From: Halorussus limi
GTDB lineage: Archaea; Halobacteriota; Halobacteria; Halobacteriales; Haladaptataceae
DNA length: 64,000 bases
Direction: 5' to 3'
NCBI RefSeq assembly: GCF_023238205.1
Contig: NZ_CP096659.1
Coordinates: 2,807,626-2,871,625, forward strand
This document shows positions 28,524-42,486 of the stretch, one piece after another. The notes below the pieces were generated by a model. It saw only the letters and a program-made list of their open reading frames with translations, did not search any database and had not been told where the DNA came from. Positions within the stretch are counted from its first letter, which is position 1. Each line of letters opens with the position of its first letter. Position numbers and translations under genes: made by a program.

Positions 28524-28621
28524 AACACCTCTCGCGCGGGGATACGTTTAACCGCGTCAGCGTCGATACTGTGACTAGTTACCGTCCGACACGTCATGTC
28601 CGACGCGGACGGCTTCCGACC

Positions 28622-29494
28622 ATGACCGAACGCATCGACTTGGACGACCTCGACGTCGGAGACGACGGCGAGGATGAGGGACCGAACCCGGGCGACTGGT
28701 TCTGGCGCGAGGAGGACGCTCCCGACGCGCCGGAGGCCGTGACCGACGTAAAGACCGACGTGACGGCCGACTCCGAGCGGTCGGCGTCGGCGACTCCGGA
28801 CTCACCGGGACTCGACGACGGCGAACCGATTCCCCGCGTCCCGCGCGAGAACGAGGCCCGGCCGGCGGGGATTCCGACGGAGTCGGGCGGTGCGGGCGCG
28901 GGCGCCGGGACGGACACGCCTGCCGCGAGCGCAGATGCATCTGCGAGCGCAGACGACACAGACGCAGGTTCGGCCGCGAGCGCAGACGCGCCTGCGGCGG
29001 ACGGGCGAGCGAGCGCCGACTCGGGCGGGAAATCCGAGGCCACGGGCCCGCACGGCGGCGGCGCGGACGACATGACGCTGGCGTTCACCTACGCGGCCGC
29101 GACCCGCTTCCCAAACTTCGGCGCGGTCGCCGTCGATGCCAACCAATGGGCCGACTGGGTCGGCATCGTCGGCCAGGTCCCGGCCCACGTCCTCAACAAG
29201 TTCCAGCGCGACCGGAACGTGGACCTCGATTTCTTCAACGGGAGCGCGCGCGGCCCGGCCGAACGCCTCGCGGCCGTCGGTCCAACCTCGATGTTCTACG
29301 CCGAGCGCATGGTCCTCGTCGGCGTCGAGGGCCGCGACGAGGAGATAGCCCAGCGCGCGGACTGGGAGTTCGTCCCGCTCTCGGAGGCCGCCGAGAAGGC
29401 CGGGTGGGAGGTCGCCGAGTCCCCGACCGACGAGGGAGCGACCGGCGGGCGCGACGACGACCGGACCGACGCCGGTCCCGAGTCGCCGGAGTAA
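28622..29494 (+). CDS. haloarchaeal protein with disordered head and conserved C-terminal domain
   Basis: 290 residues from MTERIDLDDLDVGDDGEDEG. Residues ~1-155 are Asp/Glu/Ala/Ser-rich and probably unstructured, with repeats of the ASADA type. A compact domain follows at ~155-275: MTLAFTYAAATRFPNFGAVA, ADWVGIVGQVPAHVLNKFQR and ERLAAVGPTSMFYAERMVLV. This resembles a haloarchaea-specific domain (DUF7124-like; recall only). The tail is again charged. No catalytic motif is seen. It is followed after 45 bases by three short genes on the same strand. Confidence 0.65.
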   Translation: MTERIDLDDLDVGDDGEDEGPNPGDWFWREEDAPDAPEAVTDVKTDVTADSERSASATPDSPGLDDGEPIPRVPRENEARPAGIPTESGGAGAGAGTDTPAASADASASADDTDAGSAASADAPAADGRASADSGGKSEATGPHGGGADDMTLAFTYAAATRFPNFGAVAVDANQWADWVGIVGQVPAHVLNKFQRDRNVDLDFFNGSARGPAERLAAVGPTSMFYAERMVLVGVEGRDEEIAQRADWEFVPLSEAAEKAGWEVAESPTDEGATGGRDDDRTDAGPESPE

Positions 29495-29539
29495 CTTTTT
29501 CACGTTCGGTGTGGTAGCACGAGCCATGGGGGAGTACAG

Positions 29540-29824
29540 ATGAGTCTGCGAACCGCGGCGAAACGGGCACCGATACTGCTGGCGGGCGTCGTGCTGTTCG
29601 GCGCGTGGGTCGCGCTGAACCTGTTCCGGGTGTTCGACGCGATTCCGTCGCTCTGGACCGGCGGGACCGGCGTGGGACAGACGTTGCTCGGCGGACTGGT
29701 CGGCCTGCTGGTCATGCTCACCGTCGTCGTCCTGCTAGTCGGACTGTACAGTGCGATTTCGGAGTCGTCGCCCGCGCCGGAGTCGTTCCCGCCGACCGAT
29801 AGCGGTCTCGGGTCGAATCGATGA
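29540..29824 (+). CDS. 94-residue two-helix membrane protein
   Basis: Two transmembrane helices are visible: APILLAGVVLFGAWVALNLF (~9-28) and LLGGLVGLLVMLTVVVLLVG (~49-68), with a Gly/Thr-rich external loop between (SLWTGGTGVGQT). The tail is Ser/Pro-rich. Function unknown; the next gene starts 10 bases later, so they form an operon. Confidence 0.6.
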   Translation: MSLRTAAKRAPILLAGVVLFGAWVALNLFRVFDAIPSLWTGGTGVGQTLLGGLVGLLVMLTVVVLLVGLYSAISESSPAPESFPPTDSGLGSNR

Positions 29825-29834
29825 GGTGGCGACG

Positions 29835-29984
29835 ATGACGCGCTACGAGTGTGCCGGGTGCGGGCAACTGGCCGACTTCGCCGACGCGCACGGCGAGACG
29901 GTCCATCGGGACTGTCCGGTCTGCGAGGCCCCGACGCACTGGGAAGTGGCCTTCACCGACGACCGAGCGGGGGTGTCGTTCTGA
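29835..29984 (+). CDS. 49-residue zinc-ribbon protein
   Basis: The sequence is MTRYECAGCGQLADFADAHG followed by ETVHRDCPVCEAPTHWEVAF and an Asp/Arg tail. Paired CxxC (C-A-G-C and C-P-V-C) form a zinc ribbon. The frame is open further upstream, but only this ATG gives a zinc-ribbon start. Haloarchaea have many such short zinc-finger proteins of unknown partners. Its stop overlaps the next frame. Confidence 0.75.
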   Translation: MTRYECAGCGQLADFADAHGETVHRDCPVCEAPTHWEVAFTDDRAGVSF

Positions 29985-30319
29985 CCGTCTCGTTTACGGT
30001 CGGCGACCGCTTCGTCGCGGCGGCCGAGGAGTGGGGCGAAGACCGACTGATGGACCGCGACGACGCCATCGAGACCAAGGCCGAGCAGGCCCTGCTCGAA
30101 ATCGAACATCTCGCCTCGGGCGCGACCGAGGTGGAGTTCGAGGTCGAAGACCGGACCGTCAGCCACGAACCGAGCGACGAACTCGCCGACCTGCTGGCCG
30201 AGCAGGCCGACGAGACCGGTCTCTCGGAGGCCGACGTGTTGAAACTCCACGCGGAACTGTTCTCGGGCGCCTTCCGCGACGACGACGCGGTGCGCCCGCC
30301 GAACGCGCCGCCGGAGTGA
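29981..30319 (+). CDS. conserved small acidic protein, possible CTG start
   Basis: 112 residues if it starts with the CTG at 29981, overlapping the previous stop as CTGA; 89 residues from the first ATG (30050). The upstream segment TVSFTVGDRFVAAAEEWGED has the codon use and composition of a coding region (β-strand then helix) and there is no ATG, GTG or TTG in this frame between 29981 and 30050. The remainder has DAIETKAEQALLEIEHLASG and DELADLLAEQADETGLSEAD. The helical, acidic pattern has no recognised domain. Translational coupling with the zinc-ribbon gene may make the weak start usable. Confidence 0.6.
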   Translation: MTVSFTVGDRFVAAAEEWGEDRLMDRDDAIETKAEQALLEIEHLASGATEVEFEVEDRTVSHEPSDELADLLAEQADETGLSEADVLKLHAELFSGAFRDDDAVRPPNAPPE

Positions 30320-33089: not shown

Positions 33090-33716
33090 CTACACCATCT
33101 GGGCGACTAGTTCGTCCTCGAACTCGGCGAACCCGGCCGCGACCTTCGCCCCGGCCCGGTAGAGCGGTTCGTCGGTCTCCGCCAACACGTCGTCGGCGAA
33201 CGCCTCGACCCACTGCAAGAGGTGTTCGTCCAGAAACACGCGCTCGAAGCCGAACGTCTCCTCGTCGCCCCGGCGCTGGCGGTCCACCAGATAGCGCAGG
33301 AAGGCCAGTTCGACGGCGAGGTGGTCGTCCTCCTCGGGGTACTCCTCGGGCGGCGACCACCCGGCCGCGGCGTAACTGGCCGACACCTCCGCCAGTCCCT
33401 CGCCGAGGAAGTCCGCGTCCTCCCGGTAGTACGTCTCGTGGGCGAGGACGGGCGGACGCGGGCCGACGAAGACCCGCGTGTACTCGGTCGCCAGTTCGTC
33501 TCGCACCGCTCCGACCTCCCGGCCTTCGTTGGCGTCCACGAAGCGTTCCAGTTCCGCGAACCCCTCGTCGAGCGCGGGGTTCACCTCGTCGCCCGGTATT
33601 CGAACGTCGCCCTCCAGCAGGTTCGCCACGAACGACTCTCTGGGCGCGTCCCAGAAGGTGTCGATGGCGTAGTCGATGATTTCGATGCGCGCGGCGTAGA
33701 GTTCGGTTTCGTCCAT
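33090..33716 (-). CDS. TorD/DmsD-type chaperone for a molybdoenzyme
   Basis: 208 residues. All-helical pattern with DTFWDAPRESFVANLLEGDV, then an EYTRVFVGPRPPVLAHETYY motif: the RVFVGP-HE-Y signature is diagnostic of TorD/DmsD/NarJ-like proteins. These bind the Tat signal of molybdoenzymes, aid cofactor insertion and hold export. It is two bases downstream of the HdrA-MvhD-like gene (start ATG after that stop), and both run divergent from the formate dehydrogenase operon at 36115, which carries a Tat signal. FdhA is its likely client. After the UAG stop the frame continues for 38 coding-like codons (see findings). Confidence 0.85.
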   Translation of the reverse strand: MDETELYAARIEIIDYAIDTFWDAPRESFVANLLEGDVRIPGDEVNPALDEGFAELERFVDANEGREVGAVRDELATEYTRVFVGPRPPVLAHETYYREDADFLGEGLAEVSASYAAAGWSPPEEYPEEDDHLAVELAFLRYLVDRQRRGDEETFGFERVFLDEHLLQWVEAFADDVLAETDEPLYRAGAKVAAGFAEFEDELVAQMV

Positions 33717-33718
33717 GA

Positions 33719-35926
33719 TTACCCCTCGAACAGCAGTCGGGCGCGGCAGTCGCCGCAGTACTCGAAGACGCTGTGGTCCGAGTCGGGCGCGAGTCCAGCG
33801 ACCATATCGCCGACTTCGCCCTCGATTTTCTCGGCCGAGGCCTCGCTGGCGAAGGGGTCGCCACAGCGCACGCACTCGCGCATCTCGCCCTCCATCACCG
33901 TGACCCACGCCGGGTCCTCGCCGTCCTCGACTTCCGCCGCCCGGTTCTCCGGGAGCAACGACAGGTCGAGGCCGTCGCGCATCGCAATCGCGCTCTCGGG
34001 ACACCCCTGCTCGCAGAGGCCGCAGTCGACGCACCGCTGGTGGTTGAACTGCAGGTCTCCCTCGCGCCGTCGAATCGCGTCGGTCGGACAGAGGTTCGTG
34101 CAGGTCGGCGTCAGCGCGCAGTCGTCGCTGACCGCCATCCGGCCGAAGTCCGTCAGGCCCCGAATCACCTCGCGCTCGGGGTCGGCGTGGTCCAGAATCG
34201 CCCGGACGCTCTCTAAGGTCCAGCCGTGACCGTCGAACTCGGGGTTCGGTCGGTCCTCGTCCGCGATTCTTCCGGTCGCCTCGTACTCGCCCGCGGGGAC
34301 CGGCGACTCGCCGACCGCCTCCGCGAACTCGTCCAGCGACGCGGCGAACGTCTCGGGGTCGCTCGGGTCGGGCGCGAGGAACGTCGCGCGTTCGCCCAGT
34401 CCGAGGTCGCGGGCCGCGCGATTCACCCGCTCGACCAACTCCGCCTTCGGGTCCGGCCCGGAGTGCTGGCACTCGTCGCCGCAACCCACCAGCGCCACGC
34501 CGTCGGCCCCCGCCGCCAGCGCGTGCATCGCGTGGGCCTCGCCTACCGCGTCGGCGCAGGGGACCGAGACCGGCAGGATGGGGTGATACGAGAAGTCGGC
34601 GTCTCCGCCGTCCTCGCCGGCGGAGCGCGCTTCCCGCCCGTAGGTTCGGAGCGCGCGCCGGGCGCGCTCCGAGCAGACGAACGCCACGACCTGCTCGCCG
34701 ATGGGGTCGTTCCCGCCGAACAGCCACCCGCCCGAGTCCGGCGGTTCGAGCAGGGCCTCGACCTCGCGCGCGATGCGGCGGTTCGAAGGCTCCCGGAGTT
34801 TGGTCGCGCCGGTCGGGCACGCGCTCGTGCAGGCCCCGCAGTCCTGACAGGCCACCTCGTCGAACTCGACCGCGTCGATTCGCGGGCGCTCGACAGCGCC
34901 GTGGGGGCAGGCCTCGACGCACTCGTTGCACCCCATCTGGCTCGATTCGCCCGACGCGCACACGTCCATCTCCAGGTCGAGGTGTTTGGGCTTCTCGACG
35001 CCGCCGAGCAGGTCCTCGACCGCCGCGATGGTGCCCGCGTCTATCGGCCCCGTGTAGAACCCGACGCGGCCGCCCCTCGTCTCGCGGTCCGCGCCGGGGT
35101 ACACGACTTGGTCGGCCGAAATCGTGCGCTCGACGCCCGACAGGTCGATGGCGTCGGTCGGGCAGCACTCGACCCACTCGGGGGTTCCGCCGTCGGCGGC
35201 CGTTTCCCCGTCCGTCGTCTCGCTCGCTCCGTCACCGGCCGCCGCGGCGGCCTTCAGCGAAATATCGACCGGGAGTCGAGTGACGCCCGCGTCGGGACCC
35301 TTCCGGACGCACTCCATGCACCCGACGCAGTCCTCGGTCACGCGGGAGTCGAGCGCGATTTCGAAGTCGCCGTACCGGCCGTCGACACCGGCTACGCGCC
35401 CGCGCTCTATCGTCACGTCGTCGAGGTCGGCGTCGGAGTCGGCGAAGTCCTCGCCGTCCGCGACCAGCGTCACGTCTGCGGTGTCGGCCAGCGCGGCCGC
35501 GGTCTCCGGGTCGCCGACGACCGCGACCGAGCGACCCGCCTCGCGGGAGACCGAACGCGAGACGGCCTCCTCCCGAAGGCCCGCGAATCTGGCGTTCAGG
35601 AGTCTGGCGGTCTTCTCGGTCGCCGCGGGTTCGTCGTGGACCCACCCCGCGCCCTCGCGATGGTCGACGAACGCGGCCGCGTCCGGGTGGAGTCCCTTCT
35701 CGGCCGCCAACTCCCGGAACGTCTGCTTGCACCGCGACTCGGCGGCCGTGACGACGAGTTGGTCGAGTTCGTACTCGTCGACGACGCGGTCCATCGCGGC
35801 GAGTCCGTCCTCGCACAGCAGGCGCGAACTCGCCACCACGTCCACGTCTTCGACGCCCTCCCGCACCCCTTCGAGGTCTACGTCGCACGTATCTGCGCAC
35901 GAGCAGACGAACACCCCCGTGTTCAT
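33719..35926 (-). CDS. HdrA-MvhD-like iron-sulfur fusion protein
   Basis: 735 residues from MNTGVFVCSCADTCDVDLEG. Domain order: an HdrA-type N-terminus (1-118: VFVCSC, SRCKQTFRELA, WVHDEP-TEKTARLL), a shortened FAD-like region (~130-190) where the dinucleotide GxGxxG has become VVGDPETAAALAD, ferredoxin clusters at C200-C206 with C254/C255, C333-C340 and C360-C370, an MvhD domain (~412-540, Cys ~418, 457, 482, 486), another 2x[4Fe-4S] at ~603-613 and 632-642, and a zinc-type C685/C688/C724/C727 end. In methanogens HdrA bifurcates electrons and MvhD carries them from hydrogenase or formate dehydrogenase. Without the FAD motif this protein probably just relays electrons. Confidence 0.75.
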   Translation of the reverse strand: MNTGVFVCSCADTCDVDLEGVREGVEDVDVVASSRLLCEDGLAAMDRVVDEYELDQLVVTAAESRCKQTFRELAAEKGLHPDAAAFVDHREGAGWVHDEPAATEKTARLLNARFAGLREEAVSRSVSREAGRSVAVVGDPETAAALADTADVTLVADGEDFADSDADLDDVTIERGRVAGVDGRYGDFEIALDSRVTEDCVGCMECVRKGPDAGVTRLPVDISLKAAAAAGDGASETTDGETAADGGTPEWVECCPTDAIDLSGVERTISADQVVYPGADRETRGGRVGFYTGPIDAGTIAAVEDLLGGVEKPKHLDLEMDVCASGESSQMGCNECVEACPHGAVERPRIDAVEFDEVACQDCGACTSACPTGATKLREPSNRRIAREVEALLEPPDSGGWLFGGNDPIGEQVVAFVCSERARRALRTYGREARSAGEDGGDADFSYHPILPVSVPCADAVGEAHAMHALAAGADGVALVGCGDECQHSGPDPKAELVERVNRAARDLGLGERATFLAPDPSDPETFAASLDEFAEAVGESPVPAGEYEATGRIADEDRPNPEFDGHGWTLESVRAILDHADPEREVIRGLTDFGRMAVSDDCALTPTCTNLCPTDAIRRREGDLQFNHQRCVDCGLCEQGCPESAIAMRDGLDLSLLPENRAAEVEDGEDPAWVTVMEGEMRECVRCGDPFASEASAEKIEGEVGDMVAGLAPDSDHSVFEYCGDCRARLLFEG

Positions 35927-36114
35927 GCCCGTGCTGATACACTCGGTTCGGACAAAGGTCTTGCCCCACGTTAACACTACTTCACCCGATTCGTCCACCG
36001 CCCGGAGTGTCGAACGCTTGTCCCTTCCACCCGAACTTTAATGATTCTTAAAATTGAAGTCGGGCTAGGGGATTCGGTGGCAAGTGATGACATACCACAT
36101 GATACGGGGGGACT
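35927..36114. promoter_or_regulatory. divergent promoter region between fdhA and the HdrA-MvhD operon
   Basis: 188 bases hold the promoters of two divergent operons. AT-rich elements are ACTTTAATGATTCTTAAAAT (36040-36060), which can serve as TATA in either direction. A shared regulator is likely, since both operons belong to one redox function, but no clear operator palindrome is seen. Confidence 0.45.
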
Positions 36115-39100
36115 ATGAGCACCCAACCCACTGAACCGGTTTCGCTCGACCTCGACCGACGCTCGTTCGTGAAGGCGAGCGCGCTCGCCGGGGCGGTCGC
36201 ACTCGGCGGTAGCGCGACGGGACAGGTCCTCGCGCAGGACGAGAGCGGCGAGGACGAACCGGAGGGCGCGCTCGGTCAGACCGAGACGGTCAAGACCATC
36301 TGCAACTTCTGCGCGGTCGGTTGCGGATTCAAGGGCGAGCGCAAGGGCGACGCCTTCGTCGGTCAAGAGCCGTGGCACGAACATCCCGTCAACAACGGGT
36401 CGCTGTGCTCGAAGGGCGCGGGCATCTACGGGAGCGAACACTCCCCGAAACGCCTGAAACACCCGCTGAAGCTCGTGAACGGCGAGTGGCGGAAGGTGTC
36501 GTGGGACGCCGCGATGAAGGAGGTCGGCCAGAAGCTGAACAAGTATCGCGAGGAGTCCGGCCCCGACAGCGTGATGTGGCTCGGGAGCGCCCACCACTCC
36601 AACGAGGAGGCCTACGCCTTCCGAAAGCTAGCGGCGTTCTTCGGCACGACCAACGTGGACCATCAGGCCCGAATCTGTCACTCCACGACCGTCGCGGGAC
36701 TGGCGAACACGTGGGGGTACGGGGCGATGACCAACACCATCAACGACTATCGGAACTTCGACCTCGACATCATCATCGGCCAGAACCCCGCCGAGGCCCA
36801 CCCGATAGCGATGCAGCACATCCTCGAAGGCCAGAAGCGCGGGGGGAAGATAGTCGTCATCGAACCGCGGTTCACCAAGACTGCGGCCCACGCCGACCAC
36901 TTCTACCGACTCCGGCCCGGCACGGACACCGCGCTGATGATGGGCCTCCTGCGCTACCTGCGCGACCAAGGCGAGTTGGACCAGCAGATGCTCGGCGAGC
37001 GCGTGAACGGGTGGCCCGACGTGGAGGCCGAACTCGACCGGTACGACCTCCAGACCGTCTCGGACATCACGTGGATAGACCCGGCCGACATCCGCGAAAT
37101 CGGCGACCTCGTCATCGAGAACAAGCCCAGCGTCCAGATAGAGTGGGCGATGGGCGGCACCCAGCACAACAACGGCACCCAGCACATCAGGTCGTACGCT
37201 CTGCTGAGTCTCGCCTCCGGGTCGGCGGCCCGGTCGGGCGGCGGCCTGCAAGTGATGCGGGGCCACTCGAACGTGCAGGGGGCGACCGACCTCGGGCCGA
37301 ACAGCCACATCCTGCCGGGCTACTACAGCGTGACTTCGCCCGGGTCGTGGCAGTACTGGGCCGACGTGTGGGACCAGAGCCCGTGGACCAGCGGGAATAC
37401 GTCGTTCAAGGACCTCAACAGCCGGTACGACAACATGCCCAAGCAGAAGTGGCAGGACCAAGCGGCGGAGGCCACCTCGGCGTTCATCAACGTCGGCGAC
37501 GCCAAGGTCCCGAGTCGGTCGATGATGTTCCAGAAGGGGCTGACGGTCGCCCGGTGGTTCGAGGGCGCACTCCCGAAGGAGGAGCGACTGAATAAGGCCC
37601 AACTCTACCAGCCGAACCGGCTTCGGGCCGCGGTGTTCGACGGCCACTCCGCAAACTCCATCAGCGAGATGGACAAGCAGAAGAAGGCGATGGAGAACCT
37701 CGACCTGCTGGTCGTCGTGGACATGTTCCCGTCGCTGGCGTCGGTCATGTCCGAACGCGACGACGGCGTCATCATCCTGCCCGCGTCGAGTCAGTACGAA
37801 CACCACGGCACCGTGACCAACTCCCACCGGTCGGTCCAGTGGCGCAACCCGGTCCGGCCGCCGAGCCACAACTCCAAGACCGACATGCAGATAATTCAGG
37901 AGTTGGCCGCGGAGTTGGGTCACGGCGAGCACTTCGACTGGGGCGGCGGGCCGGAACTGTTCAACGGGAAATCGACCTACGAGCAGTGTCTCAAGGAGAT
38001 AAACCTCGGGGTCCGGACCATCGGCTACCAGCAGGACCCCCAGCGACTCCAGCGCCAGTACGAGTACGACTACGCCTTCAGCACCGAGGACTTGGAGGGC
38101 AAGTCCGGGCCGGTCGAGGGCGAGTACTGGCAACTGCCGTGGCCGTGCTGGGGCGAAGGTCATCCGGGCACGCCCATCATCTGGCGCGACGATTTGGACC
38201 CCAGAGACGGCGGACAGGACTTCCGGGCGCGGTGGGGGACGAAGGCGCCGACCCGGAAGGAGTGGAACCAGATGGTCAAAGCCGGCGACATCCCCGACGA
38301 GAAGCGGTATCCGTTCGAGAAAACGGTCCAGCAACAGGGCCAGAAAGGGTTGGACATGCTCCGCGCGTCCTACGACCCCGACTGGTGGAACGGGCAGGGC
38401 GAGATTCAGGGCGTCCCGCAGTACCCCGGTTTCCACGTCGTCTGGCCCCAAGACATCACCAACCCCGACGCGCTCTCGGTGCCCTACGAGTACGCGCTCC
38501 GCGAGGACAAGTCGGTGTTCGACACCGCGAAACGGCTCAAGCAGATGAAGCAGAACGGGAATCTCAAACCCGCGAACGCGGTGTCCAGCATCAACCCGCA
38601 GGAGTACAGCCAGTACGACTCGAAACAGCCAGACGCCCCGACGGGCCGGGGAAGGGCGCGTGCGGTCGCGTGGAACTTCCTCGACACCGTGCCGGTTCAC
38701 CGCGAACCCATCGAGAGTCCGCGGCCGGACCTCGTCGAGCAGTGGCCCGCGAACGGCACTCAGACCAACTTCTACCGCCTCGACCAGGATAACGCCGCCA
38801 TCCAGAAGACGGCGACCAAGAAGGCCAACCAGCAGGGGATGGACACCATCATGACGACCGGGCGGCAGGTCGAGCATCAGGGCGGTGGCTCAGAGTCGCG
38901 CTCGAACGTCTTCCTCGCGGACCTCCAGCCACACATGTACGCCGAGATTCACCCCGACAAGGCCGAGACCATCGGCCAGAACCAGCAGGGCGTCTCGGCG
39001 GGCGTCGATGGCGGGGACCTCGTCGTCGTCCAGACGACGGACCGCGGGTCGGTGGTGGTGAAGGCCCGCGTGACCCACCGGCCCAACCCCCGGGAGATAT

Positions 39101-39414
39101 TCCTGCCGTTCCACTGGGGCGGGGTCTTCCACGGCAAGAGTCTGGAGGAGAAGTACCCAGACGGGATGGTGCCCTACGCCATCGGCGACAGCGCGAACAT
39201 CGTCACGTCGCGGGGCTACGACGCCGAGACCCAGATGCAGGAGACCAAGCCCGCGATGGTCCGCCTCTGGAAGGCGACGAAGTCGAAGATGCAGGACCTG
39301 AACATGTGGGAGGACGGCCGGATGGTGGGCTTCGACGCCGAGTTCCCGCAGGACCGCGACGGCGTCGGCACGCAGAAGGACTTCGACGTGCGCGACCGGC
39401 AAACTACGCAGTGA
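36115..39414 (+). CDS. fdhA: formate dehydrogenase catalytic subunit, FdnG-type (Cys form, Tat-exported)
   Basis: 1099 residues. A twin-arginine signal (DRRSFVKASALAGAVALGG) is cleaved near VLAQ. The [4Fe-4S] Cys set is C63, C66, C70 and C98 (CNFCAVGC...LCSKG). At the position of selenocysteine in E. coli FdnG the sequence reads VDHQARICHSTTVAGLANTW, so Cys188 is the Mo/W ligand with His189 beside it; AMTN follows. The C-terminal molybdopterin-binding domain (HWGG, ~950-1060) is present. It oxidises formate to CO2 outside the membrane. A 400-residue mid-region (~560-840) is long and Gln/Trp-rich compared with FdnG. Mo versus W cannot be told. Confidence 0.88.
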   Translation: MSTQPTEPVSLDLDRRSFVKASALAGAVALGGSATGQVLAQDESGEDEPEGALGQTETVKTICNFCAVGCGFKGERKGDAFVGQEPWHEHPVNNGSLCSKGAGIYGSEHSPKRLKHPLKLVNGEWRKVSWDAAMKEVGQKLNKYREESGPDSVMWLGSAHHSNEEAYAFRKLAAFFGTTNVDHQARICHSTTVAGLANTWGYGAMTNTINDYRNFDLDIIIGQNPAEAHPIAMQHILEGQKRGGKIVVIEPRFTKTAAHADHFYRLRPGTDTALMMGLLRYLRDQGELDQQMLGERVNGWPDVEAELDRYDLQTVSDITWIDPADIREIGDLVIENKPSVQIEWAMGGTQHNNGTQHIRSYALLSLASGSAARSGGGLQVMRGHSNVQGATDLGPNSHILPGYYSVTSPGSWQYWADVWDQSPWTSGNTSFKDLNSRYDNMPKQKWQDQAAEATSAFINVGDAKVPSRSMMFQKGLTVARWFEGALPKEERLNKAQLYQPNRLRAAVFDGHSANSISEMDKQKKAMENLDLLVVVDMFPSLASVMSERDDGVIILPASSQYEHHGTVTNSHRSVQWRNPVRPPSHNSKTDMQIIQELAAELGHGEHFDWGGGPELFNGKSTYEQCLKEINLGVRTIGYQQDPQRLQRQYEYDYAFSTEDLEGKSGPVEGEYWQLPWPCWGEGHPGTPIIWRDDLDPRDGGQDFRARWGTKAPTRKEWNQMVKAGDIPDEKRYPFEKTVQQQGQKGLDMLRASYDPDWWNGQGEIQGVPQYPGFHVVWPQDITNPDALSVPYEYALREDKSVFDTAKRLKQMKQNGNLKPANAVSSINPQEYSQYDSKQPDAPTGRGRARAVAWNFLDTVPVHREPIESPRPDLVEQWPANGTQTNFYRLDQDNAAIQKTATKKANQQGMDTIMTTGRQVEHQGGGSESRSNVFLADLQPHMYAEIHPDKAETIGQNQQGVSAGVDGGDLVVVQTTDRGSVVVKARVTHRPNPREIFLPFHWGGVFHGKSLEEKYPDGMVPYAIGDSANIVTSRGYDAETQMQETKPAMVRLWKATKSKMQDLNMWEDGRMVGFDAEFPQDRDGVGTQKDFDVRDRQTTQ

Positions 39415-39425
39415 GGTGATAGAGC

Positions 39426-40121
39426 ATGTCCAAAAATCAATCACAGGGTCAGGCGGACCAGAGCAAGGAGGTCATGCGGTCGGGCGTGATGAGTACCGGG
39501 GAGGGCGCGCGCATCTTCCCGGACGTGGAGGCCTGCATCGACTGCGGCGGGTGCGTCGTCGCGTGCAAGCGCACGTGGGACGTGCCCCGAGACGAACAGC
39601 GAATCAGCGTCGCCACGATGATGGAGGGCCAAGAGGCCGCGGAGGGGTTGAACGCCAACAGCGCACGGGCGCTCCAAGAGGGCAAGAAACCCGGCGAGAC
39701 GTCCATCCCGATGCAGTGTTACCACTGCGAGAACGCGCCGTGCGTGTCGGTCTGCCCGACGGACTCGCTGGTCAAGCAGGGCGACGGCTTCGTGGAGGTG
39801 CGCGACAGCCTCTGTGTCGGGTGTCAGTACTGCCTGTCGGCGTGTCCGTTCGGCGCGCCGCAGTTCCCCGACGCCGACGACGGGAGCGCCCAGATAGTCG
39901 GTAGCGGCAGCGTGATGGACAAGTGTACGATGTGCGAGGAGCGCCAATCGGAGACCGGCAAGGGACCGGCCTGCGCCGAGGAGTGTTCGACCGACGCCAT
40001 CCTCGTCGGGAGCGCCGACCAGATAGCCGACGAACTCGACCGGCGCGGGTCGGACGTGTTCTTCAACGACGTGGCGATGGAGATCATCTTCGGCGGCGAT
40101 GCGGAGGTGTTCGGCGGATGA
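39426..40121 (+). CDS. fdhB: formate dehydrogenase iron-sulfur subunit, FdnH-like
   Basis: 231 residues with four [4Fe-4S] binding sets: C37-C40-C43-C47, C98-C101-C106-C110, C130-C133-C136-C140 and C167-C170-C183-C187. The third set sits in CVGCQYCLSACPFGAPQFPD, typical of FdnH/NarH/DmsB. It moves electrons from the catalytic subunit to the membrane. It has no signal of its own, so it is probably co-exported with the Tat-bearing FdhA. It lies 11 bases after fdhA and overlaps the next gene as ATGA. Confidence 0.9.
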   Translation: MSKNQSQGQADQSKEVMRSGVMSTGEGARIFPDVEACIDCGGCVVACKRTWDVPRDEQRISVATMMEGQEAAEGLNANSARALQEGKKPGETSIPMQCYHCENAPCVSVCPTDSLVKQGDGFVEVRDSLCVGCQYCLSACPFGAPQFPDADDGSAQIVGSGSVMDKCTMCEERQSETGKGPACAEECSTDAILVGSADQIADELDRRGSDVFFNDVAMEIIFGGDAEVFGG

Positions 40122-40915
40122 GCGACCGCGACGGCGACCGGAGAACCACCGCGGACCCGGAGACGGATGAAAATACGGCTAAAAGAACGGAGAAGAATCG
40201 CCAAACGACGGAAAATATTTCCGACGGGAGCGGCCAGCGTCCCGAGGGTCGGACCGAGCGTCGCGACGGTCGAACCGAAGACCGCGACGACGGCGAGGTC
40301 GAGTCGGTCCGCGGCGAGCGAGCGACCGGCACCGACCCGGTAGGGACGGCCGACGCCAGCGCCGCGGAGACCCGAACCGCTCCCGACGACCCGGAGGACC
40401 CCGACGAGACCGGCAGCGACGACGGCGGCGGTCTCTCAGATGCCGCGGCCATCGCCGTCTCGGCTCTGGTCGCGCTGGTCGCGACCGCGCTCGCGTACCT
40501 CTGGGCCTCCGGGTGGTTCGGGTGGGCGACGTTCTACGAGTCGCTGTTCCGCGTCGCGCCGACCGTCTCGGGCGGCGGCGTCGGCACCGACTGGGTGGTC
40601 GGCAACACCGTGCCGATTCTCGACGCCGCCATCGCCATCACCCACGCCGCGGACGTGCTGATGGGGGTGTTCATCCTCGGGATGGTGTTCCTCCACTGGT
40701 CCATCTTCCGACGACTCTCGACCCGGATGCGTCGACCGGCGCGGCGCGAGACCGGCGAGACCGTCGCCACCGACGGCGGGGCGCGAAACCCGGAGACGGA
40801 TGGGGGAGCGCGCGACTCCGAAACCGACGGGGAACGCGACCTGGAGACGGACAGCAGGACGCACGACCCGGAGAGGGACGACGAGGCGCGAGGCGAGGGA
40901 GGTGACGGCCCGTGA
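40118..40915 (+). CDS. membrane protein of the formate dehydrogenase operon with disordered head and tail
   Basis: 265 residues. Residues 1-105 are highly charged and low complexity (Arg/Asp/Glu/Thr). Two helices follow: SDAAAIAVSALVALVATALA (~106-125) and DVLMGVFILGMVFLHWSIF (~180-200), with loops FGWATFYESLFRVAPTVSGG and VGTDWVVGNTVPILDAAIA. After that there is a 60-residue tail of repeats of the type RDSETDGERD/ARNPETDGG. Start ATG overlaps the fdhB stop and its end overlaps the cytochrome b gene by 4 bases. It may be a membrane anchor. I do not recognise a family. Confidence 0.65.
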   Translation: MSDRDGDRRTTADPETDENTAKRTEKNRQTTENISDGSGQRPEGRTERRDGRTEDRDDGEVESVRGERATGTDPVGTADASAAETRTAPDDPEDPDETGSDDGGGLSDAAAIAVSALVALVATALAYLWASGWFGWATFYESLFRVAPTVSGGGVGTDWVVGNTVPILDAAIAITHAADVLMGVFILGMVFLHWSIFRRLSTRMRRPARRETGETVATDGGARNPETDGGARDSETDGERDLETDSRTHDPERDDEARGEGGDGP

Positions 40916-42009
40916 CCAACCTCGACCACGGGAAGTTCTCGCGGACGACCACCGTCTTCCACTCGCTGCTGGCGCTCGACGTGTTCGCCCTCTTTTTCAC
41001 GGGCTACGCCGTGATGTTCAACGACGAACTCTGGTGGCTGGTCACGCTGATGGGCGGCAACACGGGGGTGCTGGCGGTCCACCGACTCGCCGGCCTCGTC
41101 CTCGTCGCGCTCGTCGTCTTCTGGCTCACGCTGACTATTCTCACGCCCGGCGGTCGCCGGGGAGTCAAGTCGGCCATGCCGTCGAAGAAGGACGTTGACG
41201 CCGCGATTCAGGACGTGAAGTTCGCGCTCGGCCGGGCCGACGAGCGCCACCCTCACGCCCGCCAGTTCGCGGGCTACACCGCCGACGAGGTGCCCCTGCT
41301 GAGCTACGTCGGGAAGGGCGTCGTGTTCATCTTCTCGATAGAGTTGGTCCTGCTGATGATTTCGGGCCTGCTCATCTGGAGCAAGGTCGGCCTGATGCAG
41401 TACTTCGCCACGAAGACCGCCGCGGCGGCGTTCGTCACCTTCCACGGTCTGCTCGGGGTCATCATGCTGATGGGCGTGATGTTCCACATCTTCGAACACG
41501 GCTTCCACCCGGCGTTCTTCCCGGTCGAACTCAAGGCGTTCGTCCCGAAGGACCTCACGCCGGAGACCCACGCCGACACGGAAGTCGCGGTGGAACACGA
41601 GGTCGTAGAGGAGGAAGTCGTCACCGACGAGGAGGGCCGCGTGGTCGAAGACGAGGTGGCCGTCGAGGAGGAGGCTGTCGAGCGCGAGTACGAGGGAACC
41701 GGCATCGAGCAACTGATACTGTCGAGCAACTGGAGTTGGGCCGCGAACCTGATGGGCGCGCTCACCGTCGTCGGTATCGTGAGCGTCCTCGTCGGGAGCA
41801 TCTTCGACGAGGGGTATCCGGTGCCGCGCGAACTCGCCGTCGGCGGCGGCCCGACCAACGCCCTGCTCACGGTCGGCATCAACGTCGGCGTCCTCGTGCT
41901 GTTCGTCGGACTCGTCCTCTCGATGTACGGCAACGTCCTCAGGAAGCGCTACGAGGCGCAACTCGAAGAGCGCCGGGAGCGACCCGTCGCGGACGCGAGC
42001 GACGACTGA
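40912..42009 (+). CDS. cytochrome b subunit of formate dehydrogenase, FdnI-like
   Basis: 365 residues. The first ~180 residues match FdnI: TTTVFHSLLALDVFALFFTG (His ~17), LAVHRLAGLVLVALVVFWL (His ~52), LSYVGKGVVFIFSIELVLLM and FHGLLGVIMLMGVMFHIFEH (His pair). These histidines bind heme b. Two further helices (~285-305, 320-345) are separated from the rest by an acidic linker (~200-265) of the type EEEVVTDEEGRVVEDEVAVE, which FdnI lacks. It passes electrons to the quinone pool. The full order fdhA-fdhB-membrane protein-cytochrome b makes a complete respiratory complex. Confidence 0.85.
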   Translation: MTNLDHGKFSRTTTVFHSLLALDVFALFFTGYAVMFNDELWWLVTLMGGNTGVLAVHRLAGLVLVALVVFWLTLTILTPGGRRGVKSAMPSKKDVDAAIQDVKFALGRADERHPHARQFAGYTADEVPLLSYVGKGVVFIFSIELVLLMISGLLIWSKVGLMQYFATKTAAAAFVTFHGLLGVIMLMGVMFHIFEHGFHPAFFPVELKAFVPKDLTPETHADTEVAVEHEVVEEEVVTDEEGRVVEDEVAVEEEAVEREYEGTGIEQLILSSNWSWAANLMGALTVVGIVSVLVGSIFDEGYPVPRELAVGGGPTNALLTVGINVGVLVLFVGLVLSMYGNVLRKRYEAQLEERRERPVADASDD

Positions 42010-42078: not shown

Positions 42079-42486
42079 TCACCCGACCAACTCGGCGGCC
42101 TCCTCGGACAGTTCGACGGCCACGTCTTGGCGGGTCTGCTGGCTGACTTGGTCCACGTTTCGGGTCAGCACCTCCAGAATGTCCTCGGGTTCCGGATACA
42201 CCAGCATGTTCTGCTGGTCGTCCTCCATCACGAGTTGGGTGTCCGAGAGCTGAATCTGGTCGTTCTCGATGCTGGCGACGATGGCCGGCAGTACCTCCTC
42301 GCCGCCGGGGTCGCCCTCGGCGACGCGGGTGATGTACAGCGAGTCGATGCCGATGAGGTCCTTGTACTCCCGGATGCGCTCGGCCAGCGCGACCATGTCC
42401 TGTGTGACGGCGGTCTTCTGGGGATTACCGTGAGTTCCCTCGTAACACTGCTTACACACCCGCAACTCCATGCGCATGTCTACCAC
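42079..42486 (-). CDS. haloarchaeal small soluble protein, Cys-containing, unknown
   Basis: 135 residues. The start is taken as MVDMRMELRVCKQCYEGTHG; an AT element about 29 bases upstream of 42486 fits a leaderless start there. CKQC near the N-terminus is half a zinc-ribbon. The rest is helical and hydrophobic-patterned (VALAERIREYKDLIGIDSLY, EEVLPAIVASIENDQIQLSD, EDILEVLTRNVDQVSQQTRQ). Function unknown. It runs convergent to the cytochrome b gene with 69 bases between. Confidence 0.6.
   Translation of the reverse strand: MVDMRMELRVCKQCYEGTHGNPQKTAVTQDMVALAERIREYKDLIGIDSLYITRVAEGDPGGEEVLPAIVASIENDQIQLSDTQLVMEDDQQNMLVYPEPEDILEVLTRNVDQVSQQTRQDVAVELSEEAAELVG

Follow-up and report, generated by a model that had tools for sequence, protein, structure and literature searches.

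The window (the whole 64,000-nucleotide stretch of DNA analysed) encodes a FAD-less, HdrA-MvhD-derived poly-Fe-S protein of 735 amino acids that we propose, with a probability of roughly 0.55, to be a cytoplasmic accessory in the assembly of molybdoenzymes exported by the Tat route, in this case a respiratory formate dehydrogenase (FDH). Its near-inseparable inheritance with an exported FDH and the chaperone TorD suggests that it probably helps to build FDH where FdhD is absent. The comparisons described below show an enzyme of energy metabolism that was stripped of its flavin and retained for another purpose in two domains of life. The architecture of the protein, the loss of its core, its linkage and co-occurrence with other genes, and the absence of FdhD were each observed directly, and they bear on maturation by association.

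Domain architecture and loss of the flavin core

The gene was identified from its translation, Pfam and NCBIfam matches, matches to HdrA in the PDB, and its relatives. It lies on the minus strand at positions 33719 to 35926, with its ATG at 35926 and its stop codon ending at 33719, and all domains given here are on that strand. The product contains 33 Cys residues and aligned over its full length with HdrA-MvhD fusions. It begins with the HdrA N-terminal Fe-S domain (residues 1 to 112; 35591 to 35926); residues 3 to 138 aligned with residues 3 to 148 of the HdrA chain in the PDB search, and residues 2 to 139 with positions 2 to 141 of the NCBIfam HdrA model. A Rossmann stub (residues ~132 to 195; 35342 to 35533) and a remnant of the inserted ferredoxin of HdrA (residues 196 to 262; 35141 to 35341) follow, both recognized by alignment. 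The HdrA C-terminal di-cluster ferredoxin comes next (residues 316 to 393; 34748 to 34981), with eight Cys that are invariant in archaea and bacteria; here residues 327 to 397 aligned with positions 586 to 655 of the 771 in HdrA. The MvhD/FlpD domain (residues 411 to 538; 34313 to 34696), assigned from Pfam and the Cys alignment, matched the FlpD profile PF02662 at residues 413 to 538 (E=1.9e-15; 57 bits against a cut-off of 22), and in NCBIfam and PDB searches residues 329 to 538 aligned with 578 to 768 of HdrA2, the MvhD fusion. Pfam and alignment placed an additional di-cluster ferredoxin at residues 597 to 660 (33947 to 34138), and the protein ends in a CxxC...CxxC pattern (residues 685, 688, 724 and 727; 33722 to 33901) that was invariant in 55 of 55 relatives and probably binds a metal. 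The sequence-only reading had proposed the order HdrA N-terminus, ferredoxins, MvhD, ferredoxin pair and zinc-type end; the Pfam, NCBIfam and PDB alignments confirmed this order, and the collinear HdrA and HdrA2 alignments support the HdrA-MvhD ancestry that it implied. The architecture was near-identical in 50 haloarchaeal homologues and is therefore beyond chance.

Compared to HdrA-MvhD fusions, the protein is missing approximately 250 residues of the FAD/thioredoxin-reductase core. The 188 residues between residues 139 and 327 stand for about 440 HdrA model positions, and the corresponding stretch was 157 to 189 residues long in haloarchaeal relatives and 141 to 146 in the two alphaproteobacterial relatives measured. 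What is left is a 60-residue stub, SVAVVGDPETAAALADTADVTLVAD, which looks in the alignment like the start of a Rossmann fold whose glycine motif is gone, with VAVVGDPETAAALADTADVTLVAD where HdrA has the GxGxxG FAD motif. No Pyr_redox, NAD or FAD family of Pfam matched this protein or three diverse relatives up to E=1, and the NCBIfam HdrA score was far under its cut-off (110 versus 1,100 bits). The earlier claim that the FAD motif had been lost was thus borne out at the level of sequence, where the loss is confirmed and proved larger than noted. The core was missing from all 55 aligned relatives, proteobacterial ones included, which indicates that its loss is old. An AlphaFold2 model of the 735-residue protein, built on six homologues, had a mean pLDDT of 40.5, too low to speak for or against an FAD fold, so the evidence for the loss is that of sequence.

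Among the closest known systems are HdrA type Ia and HdrA2 proteins (HdrA classes are described in PMC12054007), exemplified by HdrA2 of Methanosarcina acetivorans, which share the collinear N-terminal domain, the inserted ferredoxin seen here as a remnant, the C-terminal ferredoxin and the fused MvhD. HdrA2 retains the thioredoxin-reductase/FAD core of ~250 residues, whereas the window protein lacks it, adds a di-cluster ferredoxin and the CxxC end, and is encoded with TorD and an exported FDH. Since the flavin core was lost, the protein would no longer be able to bifurcate electrons or take them from hydride. A likeness to HycF, the Fe-S subunit of formate hydrogenlyase, was confined to the C-terminal part, where NF009053 matched residues 601 to 729 (the third ferredoxin and the four-Cys end) far below the family cut-off. 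The current database name "hydrogenase iron-sulfur subunit" would mislead.

Variation of cluster ligands across the family

Cys conservation was read from 50 haloarchaeal sequences and from a wider set that included seven proteobacterial ones. In the N-terminal domain, Cys 8, 10, 14 and 38 were invariant in all 50 haloarchaeal sequences, and each sequence had exactly one further Cys, at either position 61 or position 66 (22 versus 28), which argues that this cluster is kept. The inserted ferredoxin is cut down to the ligands of one cluster (C200, C203, C206 and C255). Four MvhD Cys, the presumed [2Fe-2S] ligands (418, 457, 482 and 486), were invariant in the close haloarchaeal groups and gone in bacteria and in a distant haloarchaeal group. 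The additional ferredoxin has seven of its eight Cys, with Thr at position 606 in the close haloarchaeal groups, a pattern that we take to be that of 3Fe/7Fe ferredoxins. In the wider set, ligands of the N-terminal domain, the inserted ferredoxin and MvhD varied or disappeared, so that two or three redox clusters are dispensable. Both di-cluster ferredoxins and the terminal CxxC pairs were invariant throughout, the seven proteobacterial sequences included.

As judged from these Cys patterns, up to about seven clusters are predicted in a row. Such a chain, assembled from HdrA and MvhD parts that are electron-transfer modules, could be used for plain electron transfer, and the sequence-only reading had suggested a cytoplasmic electron wire. 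On this rival view, a flavin-free Hdr/Mvh variant would link the ferredoxin pool to FDH or its membrane subunit. The loss of the MvhD Cys in bacteria and in the distant haloarchaeal group counts against this, as does the methanogen-type HdrB (TIGR03288), for which only weak matches and nothing over the cut-off were found in 20 genomes including that of the window. Because the core is constant while other clusters come and go, a scaffold or donor fits better than a fixed wire.

The fdh locus of the window

TorD/NarJ-family chaperone is encoded on the minus strand at 33090 to 33716 (PF02613, E=2.6e-27; TIGR03482), and its gene starts 2 bp past the stop codon of the HdrA-like gene. On the other side, a shared divergent intergenic region of 188 bp (35927 to 36114) separates the HdrA-like gene from fdhA (36115 to 39414, plus strand), which encodes the Tat-exported catalytic subunit with an RRSF motif, an N-terminal [4Fe-4S] motif, and the CHxxTVAGL site with its active-site Cys188 within ICHSTTVAGL. 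The Fdh-alpha score was 428 bits, below the equivalog cut-off of 666. Downstream on the plus strand are fdhB (39426 to 40121), an FDH3 beta-like Fe-S subunit by Pfam and NCBIfam; a gene for a two-TM protein without a Pfam family match (40118 to 40915); and fdhC (40912 to 42009), a cytochrome b561-type membrane subunit (PF01292) with six TM-like segments. The two-TM protein was also conserved in the loci of five relatives (L004 to L008). From its sequence, FdhA is predicted to be a respiratory Tat formate dehydrogenase with Fe-S and cytochrome b561 subunits and to act on formate.

The divergent gene order with a common 188-bp intergenic region, together with the many oxidisable clusters, would suit a protein that senses redox state or metal through its Fe-S clusters and, encoded divergently, regulates the expression or assembly of fdh; a redox sensor had also been suggested from the sequence. 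However, Pfam gave no DNA-binding or signalling domain, other clades do not have the divergent arrangement, and the gene pairs with a chaperone, and we consider a sensor very improbable. A NarO-type site, which we took to be CGAAN4TTCG, was absent from the divergent promoter and not above chance in the number found in the window, and no clear common palindrome was seen in an alignment of the divergent region. A defence-related reading was rejected, with no PADLOC match.

Linkage to exported molybdoenzymes and TorD

We surveyed 391 haloarchaeal genomes, which are phylogenetically non-independent, so that co-inherited genes are not independent observations. The HdrA-like gene was present in 107 of them (40 of 86 genera) in 112 copies, and the window's copy was the sole one in its genome. 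Eighty-five of the 112 copies were less than 1 kb from an fdhA relative, all of them divergent, with a median gap of 234 bp, and the gene was present in all 88 genomes that have a close fdhA. Fifteen further genomes holding the gene carry a more distant, type-2 fdhA, and four have a paralogue type of the HdrA-like gene. An exported FDH or an ArrA/PsrA-type enzyme was found in 106 of the 107 genomes. The exception (G160, paralogue type) has a degraded locus, in which the copy is truncated and the stretch read contains no molybdoenzyme. The link to an exported formate dehydrogenase is therefore tighter than the sequence-only reading had guessed, and homologues standing apart from molybdoenzymes, which would have spoken against it, were confined to that one genome. 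Three additional type-2 genomes (G052, G182 and G367) carry a distant form of the gene (~30 to 40%). In G129 (L067) a type-2 FDH and TorD occur with no HdrA-like gene detectable in the stretch read, and in G264 a second fdhA and TorD locus (L063) lacks its own HdrA-like copy.

In each of the 48 loci measured, two of them betaproteobacterial, TorD directly adjoined the gene on the same strand, downstream in 38 and upstream in 10, and many of the downstream torD genes overlap the HdrA-like gene by 4 nt; this set excludes about nine detached copies with no adjoining TorD (L050, L051, L053 to L055 and L059 to L062). About a dozen haloarchaeal copies in all do not adjoin TorD. Some genomes hold the HdrA-like gene away from fdhA, as is expected for a factor acting in trans. 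The paralogues form a well-supported clade in the tree, with the locus order MopB-FeS-NrfD-TorD-HdrA-like-Mrp-MobA and an exported, PhsA/ArrA-like MopB that has Cys at the Mo-ligand position. Loci L044 to L046, L048 and L049 contain this MopB-type cluster, and Mrp and MobA follow the HdrA-like gene in L045, L046, L048 and L049. The cluster is possibly an arsenate or sulfur respiration system; in Natronorubrum bangense (L044) it lies next to arsenic genes. This swap of partners indicates that the constant theme is TorD with cofactor and Fe-S assembly genes and not one redox partner.

Near-universal linkage to a redox enzyme is what an electron wire would predict. Yet FdhA is Tat-exported and thus lies across the membrane from the HdrA-like protein, in which sequence inspection revealed no TM segment or signal, and both partner enzyme and anchor subunit (cytochrome b561 versus NrfD) vary by clade. 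With TorD constant, partners variable, FdhA exported, and neither a methanogen-type HdrB over its cut-off nor a Pfam DNA-binding domain found, the two earlier suggestions are less well supported; we regard the wire as rather unlikely. A maturation accessory is favoured because the enzyme is exported and the protein is not, TorD is its most constant neighbour, the enzyme partner and anchor change, the gene is sometimes in trans, and cofactor-assembly genes recur.

Bacterial relatives

Relatives in bacteria were sampled from plasmids only. Proteobacterial FDH3 loci carry a homologue, annotated as a 4Fe-4S binding protein (Sagittula, Sulfitobacter, Sinorhizobium and Variovorax), with DUF3305, DUF3306 and TorD and often with MobA, MoeA-type or Mrp genes. 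These proteins have the domain order of the window protein, with the Rossmann stub, the core ferredoxins and the CxxC pairs at the end, and a like neighbourhood with TorD and FDH; they are approximately 26 to 35% identical over the aligned part and have lost the MvhD Cys, and the alphaproteobacterial homologues, unlike the window protein, have lost the inserted ferredoxin. The homologue of Rhodobacterales and Hyphomicrobiales is transcribed divergently from an fdhA-fdh3B-fdhC operon that includes TorD, DUF3305 and DUF3306, and in the betaproteobacterial loci of Variovorax and Diaphorobacter the annotated homologue and TorD genes share 4 nt. In two papers on Shewanella, SO_4506, named "iron-sulfur cluster-binding protein," is listed alongside SO_4507 (FdhT) and/or SO_4509 (FdhA), with similar expression changes. 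Given this gene order and name, SO_4506 is presumably a homologue and would provide a tractable bacterial relative.

The Fe-S carrier family Mrp/NBP35 adjoins the homologue in Sagittula and Sulfitobacter as it does in the ArrA-like haloarchaeal loci, and the ferredoxin cores are conserved where accessory clusters vary. Both observations would be consistent with dedicated storage and delivery of Fe-S clusters for FdhA, FdhB or ArrB-like subunits with no role in electron transfer. We judge this improbable, since the chain of clusters resembles a conduit and Mrp was not noted next to the window's copy.

Absence of FdhD and a 132-residue CxxC companion

Halobacteria often have formate dehydrogenase genes without fdhD, and how the Mo cofactor is inserted and sulfurated, and by which proteins, was left unexplained in a 2023 review (PMC10609526). 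Halodesulfurarchaeum was reported to use formate as an electron donor (PMC5437934), which indicates that at least some haloarchaeal FDHs work. In our survey FdhD (PF02634) was matched in none of the 391 haloarchaeal genomes, although many carry FDH genes, and in 8 of 14 controls. TIGR00129 was likewise unmatched in the 20 of these genomes searched with it, and neither model matched anywhere in the window's own genome. An FdhE-like reading was rejected, as no FdhE was over the cut-off in 20 genomes. The HdrA-like protein resembles FdhD, the FDH accessory sulfurtransferase, in its possible role in formate dehydrogenase maturation but is unrelated to it in sequence. FdhD is encoded near the homologue in several bacterial loci; the view that the protein simply replaces FdhD throughout the family was therefore rejected.

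A second gene, for a 132-aa CxxC protein (42079 to 42477, minus strand), has a genome distribution near-identical to that of the HdrA-like gene. Its close form (at least 64% identity) occurred in 99 genomes and the fdh-type HdrA-like gene in 100, and 98 of the 391 genomes had both (P of about 3e-89 by the hypergeometric distribution, uncorrected for shared ancestry); the sole genome with the CxxC gene alone is 85% complete. The two genes were less than 12 kb apart in 94 of 99 genomes, and in 11 cases with a detached HdrA-like gene or a type-2 fdh, the CxxC gene directly precedes the HdrA-like gene on its strand. Distant CxxC relatives (about 50%) were found in some 60 genomes that lack the HdrA-like gene. 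The protein matched no Pfam or NCBIfam family, and a PDB sequence search gave no relative. One of five structure models was fair (pLDDT 72.6), with Z scores of 5 to 7 to GST and thioredoxin folds and Foldseek E values above 0.06, weakly suggestive of a thioredoxin-like fold. The CxxC protein is probably an additional component of the system.

A possible route to molybdoenzyme maturation

We favour maturation over an electron wire, Fe-S delivery or a sensor and propose the following scheme. An ancestral HdrA-MvhD fusion lost its flavin core, leaving what would be a one-electron Fe-S relay or scaffold. This protein would act with the adjacent TorD, and in most haloarchaea also with the CxxC protein encoded near fdhC, on apo-FdhA/FdhB prior to Tat export, presumably binding TorD and FdhA. 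It may supply low-potential electrons, or alternatively Fe-S clusters or sulfur in reduced form, with which the cofactor is assembled or activated at the Mo/W site with its Cys ligand. A more specific and distinctly tentative proposal, which we consider doubtful, is an FdhD-independent route of Mo/W cofactor sulfuration and insertion in which TorD is joined by the HdrA-MvhD relic as a source of electrons and the CxxC protein as a thiol or sulfur carrier. If this route exists, it would be a new molybdoenzyme maturation system made of parts of an electron-bifurcating enzyme and would explain how haloarchaea manage without FdhD. For the question raised in the review (PMC10609526), the linkage data name two candidates, the relic of HdrA-MvhD and the CxxC protein of 132 aa. 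In the library searched, no paper connected HdrA/MvhD with TorD or with the maturation of molybdoenzymes.

Other observations in the genome

The window's own genome also encodes a second FDH-like molybdoenzyme (G000:C3:294879-296321, L086), a 1,168-aa frame with a CHSSTVAAL site and no evident Tat motif, which is possibly a cytoplasmic FDH. Two small haloarchaeal genes lie close to the HdrA-like gene in the window (28571 to 30319) and again in L054 (G298), where fdhA is elsewhere; they encode an "MTERIDLD(D/E)LDVG..." protein and an "...EQALLEIEHL.SGA..." protein.
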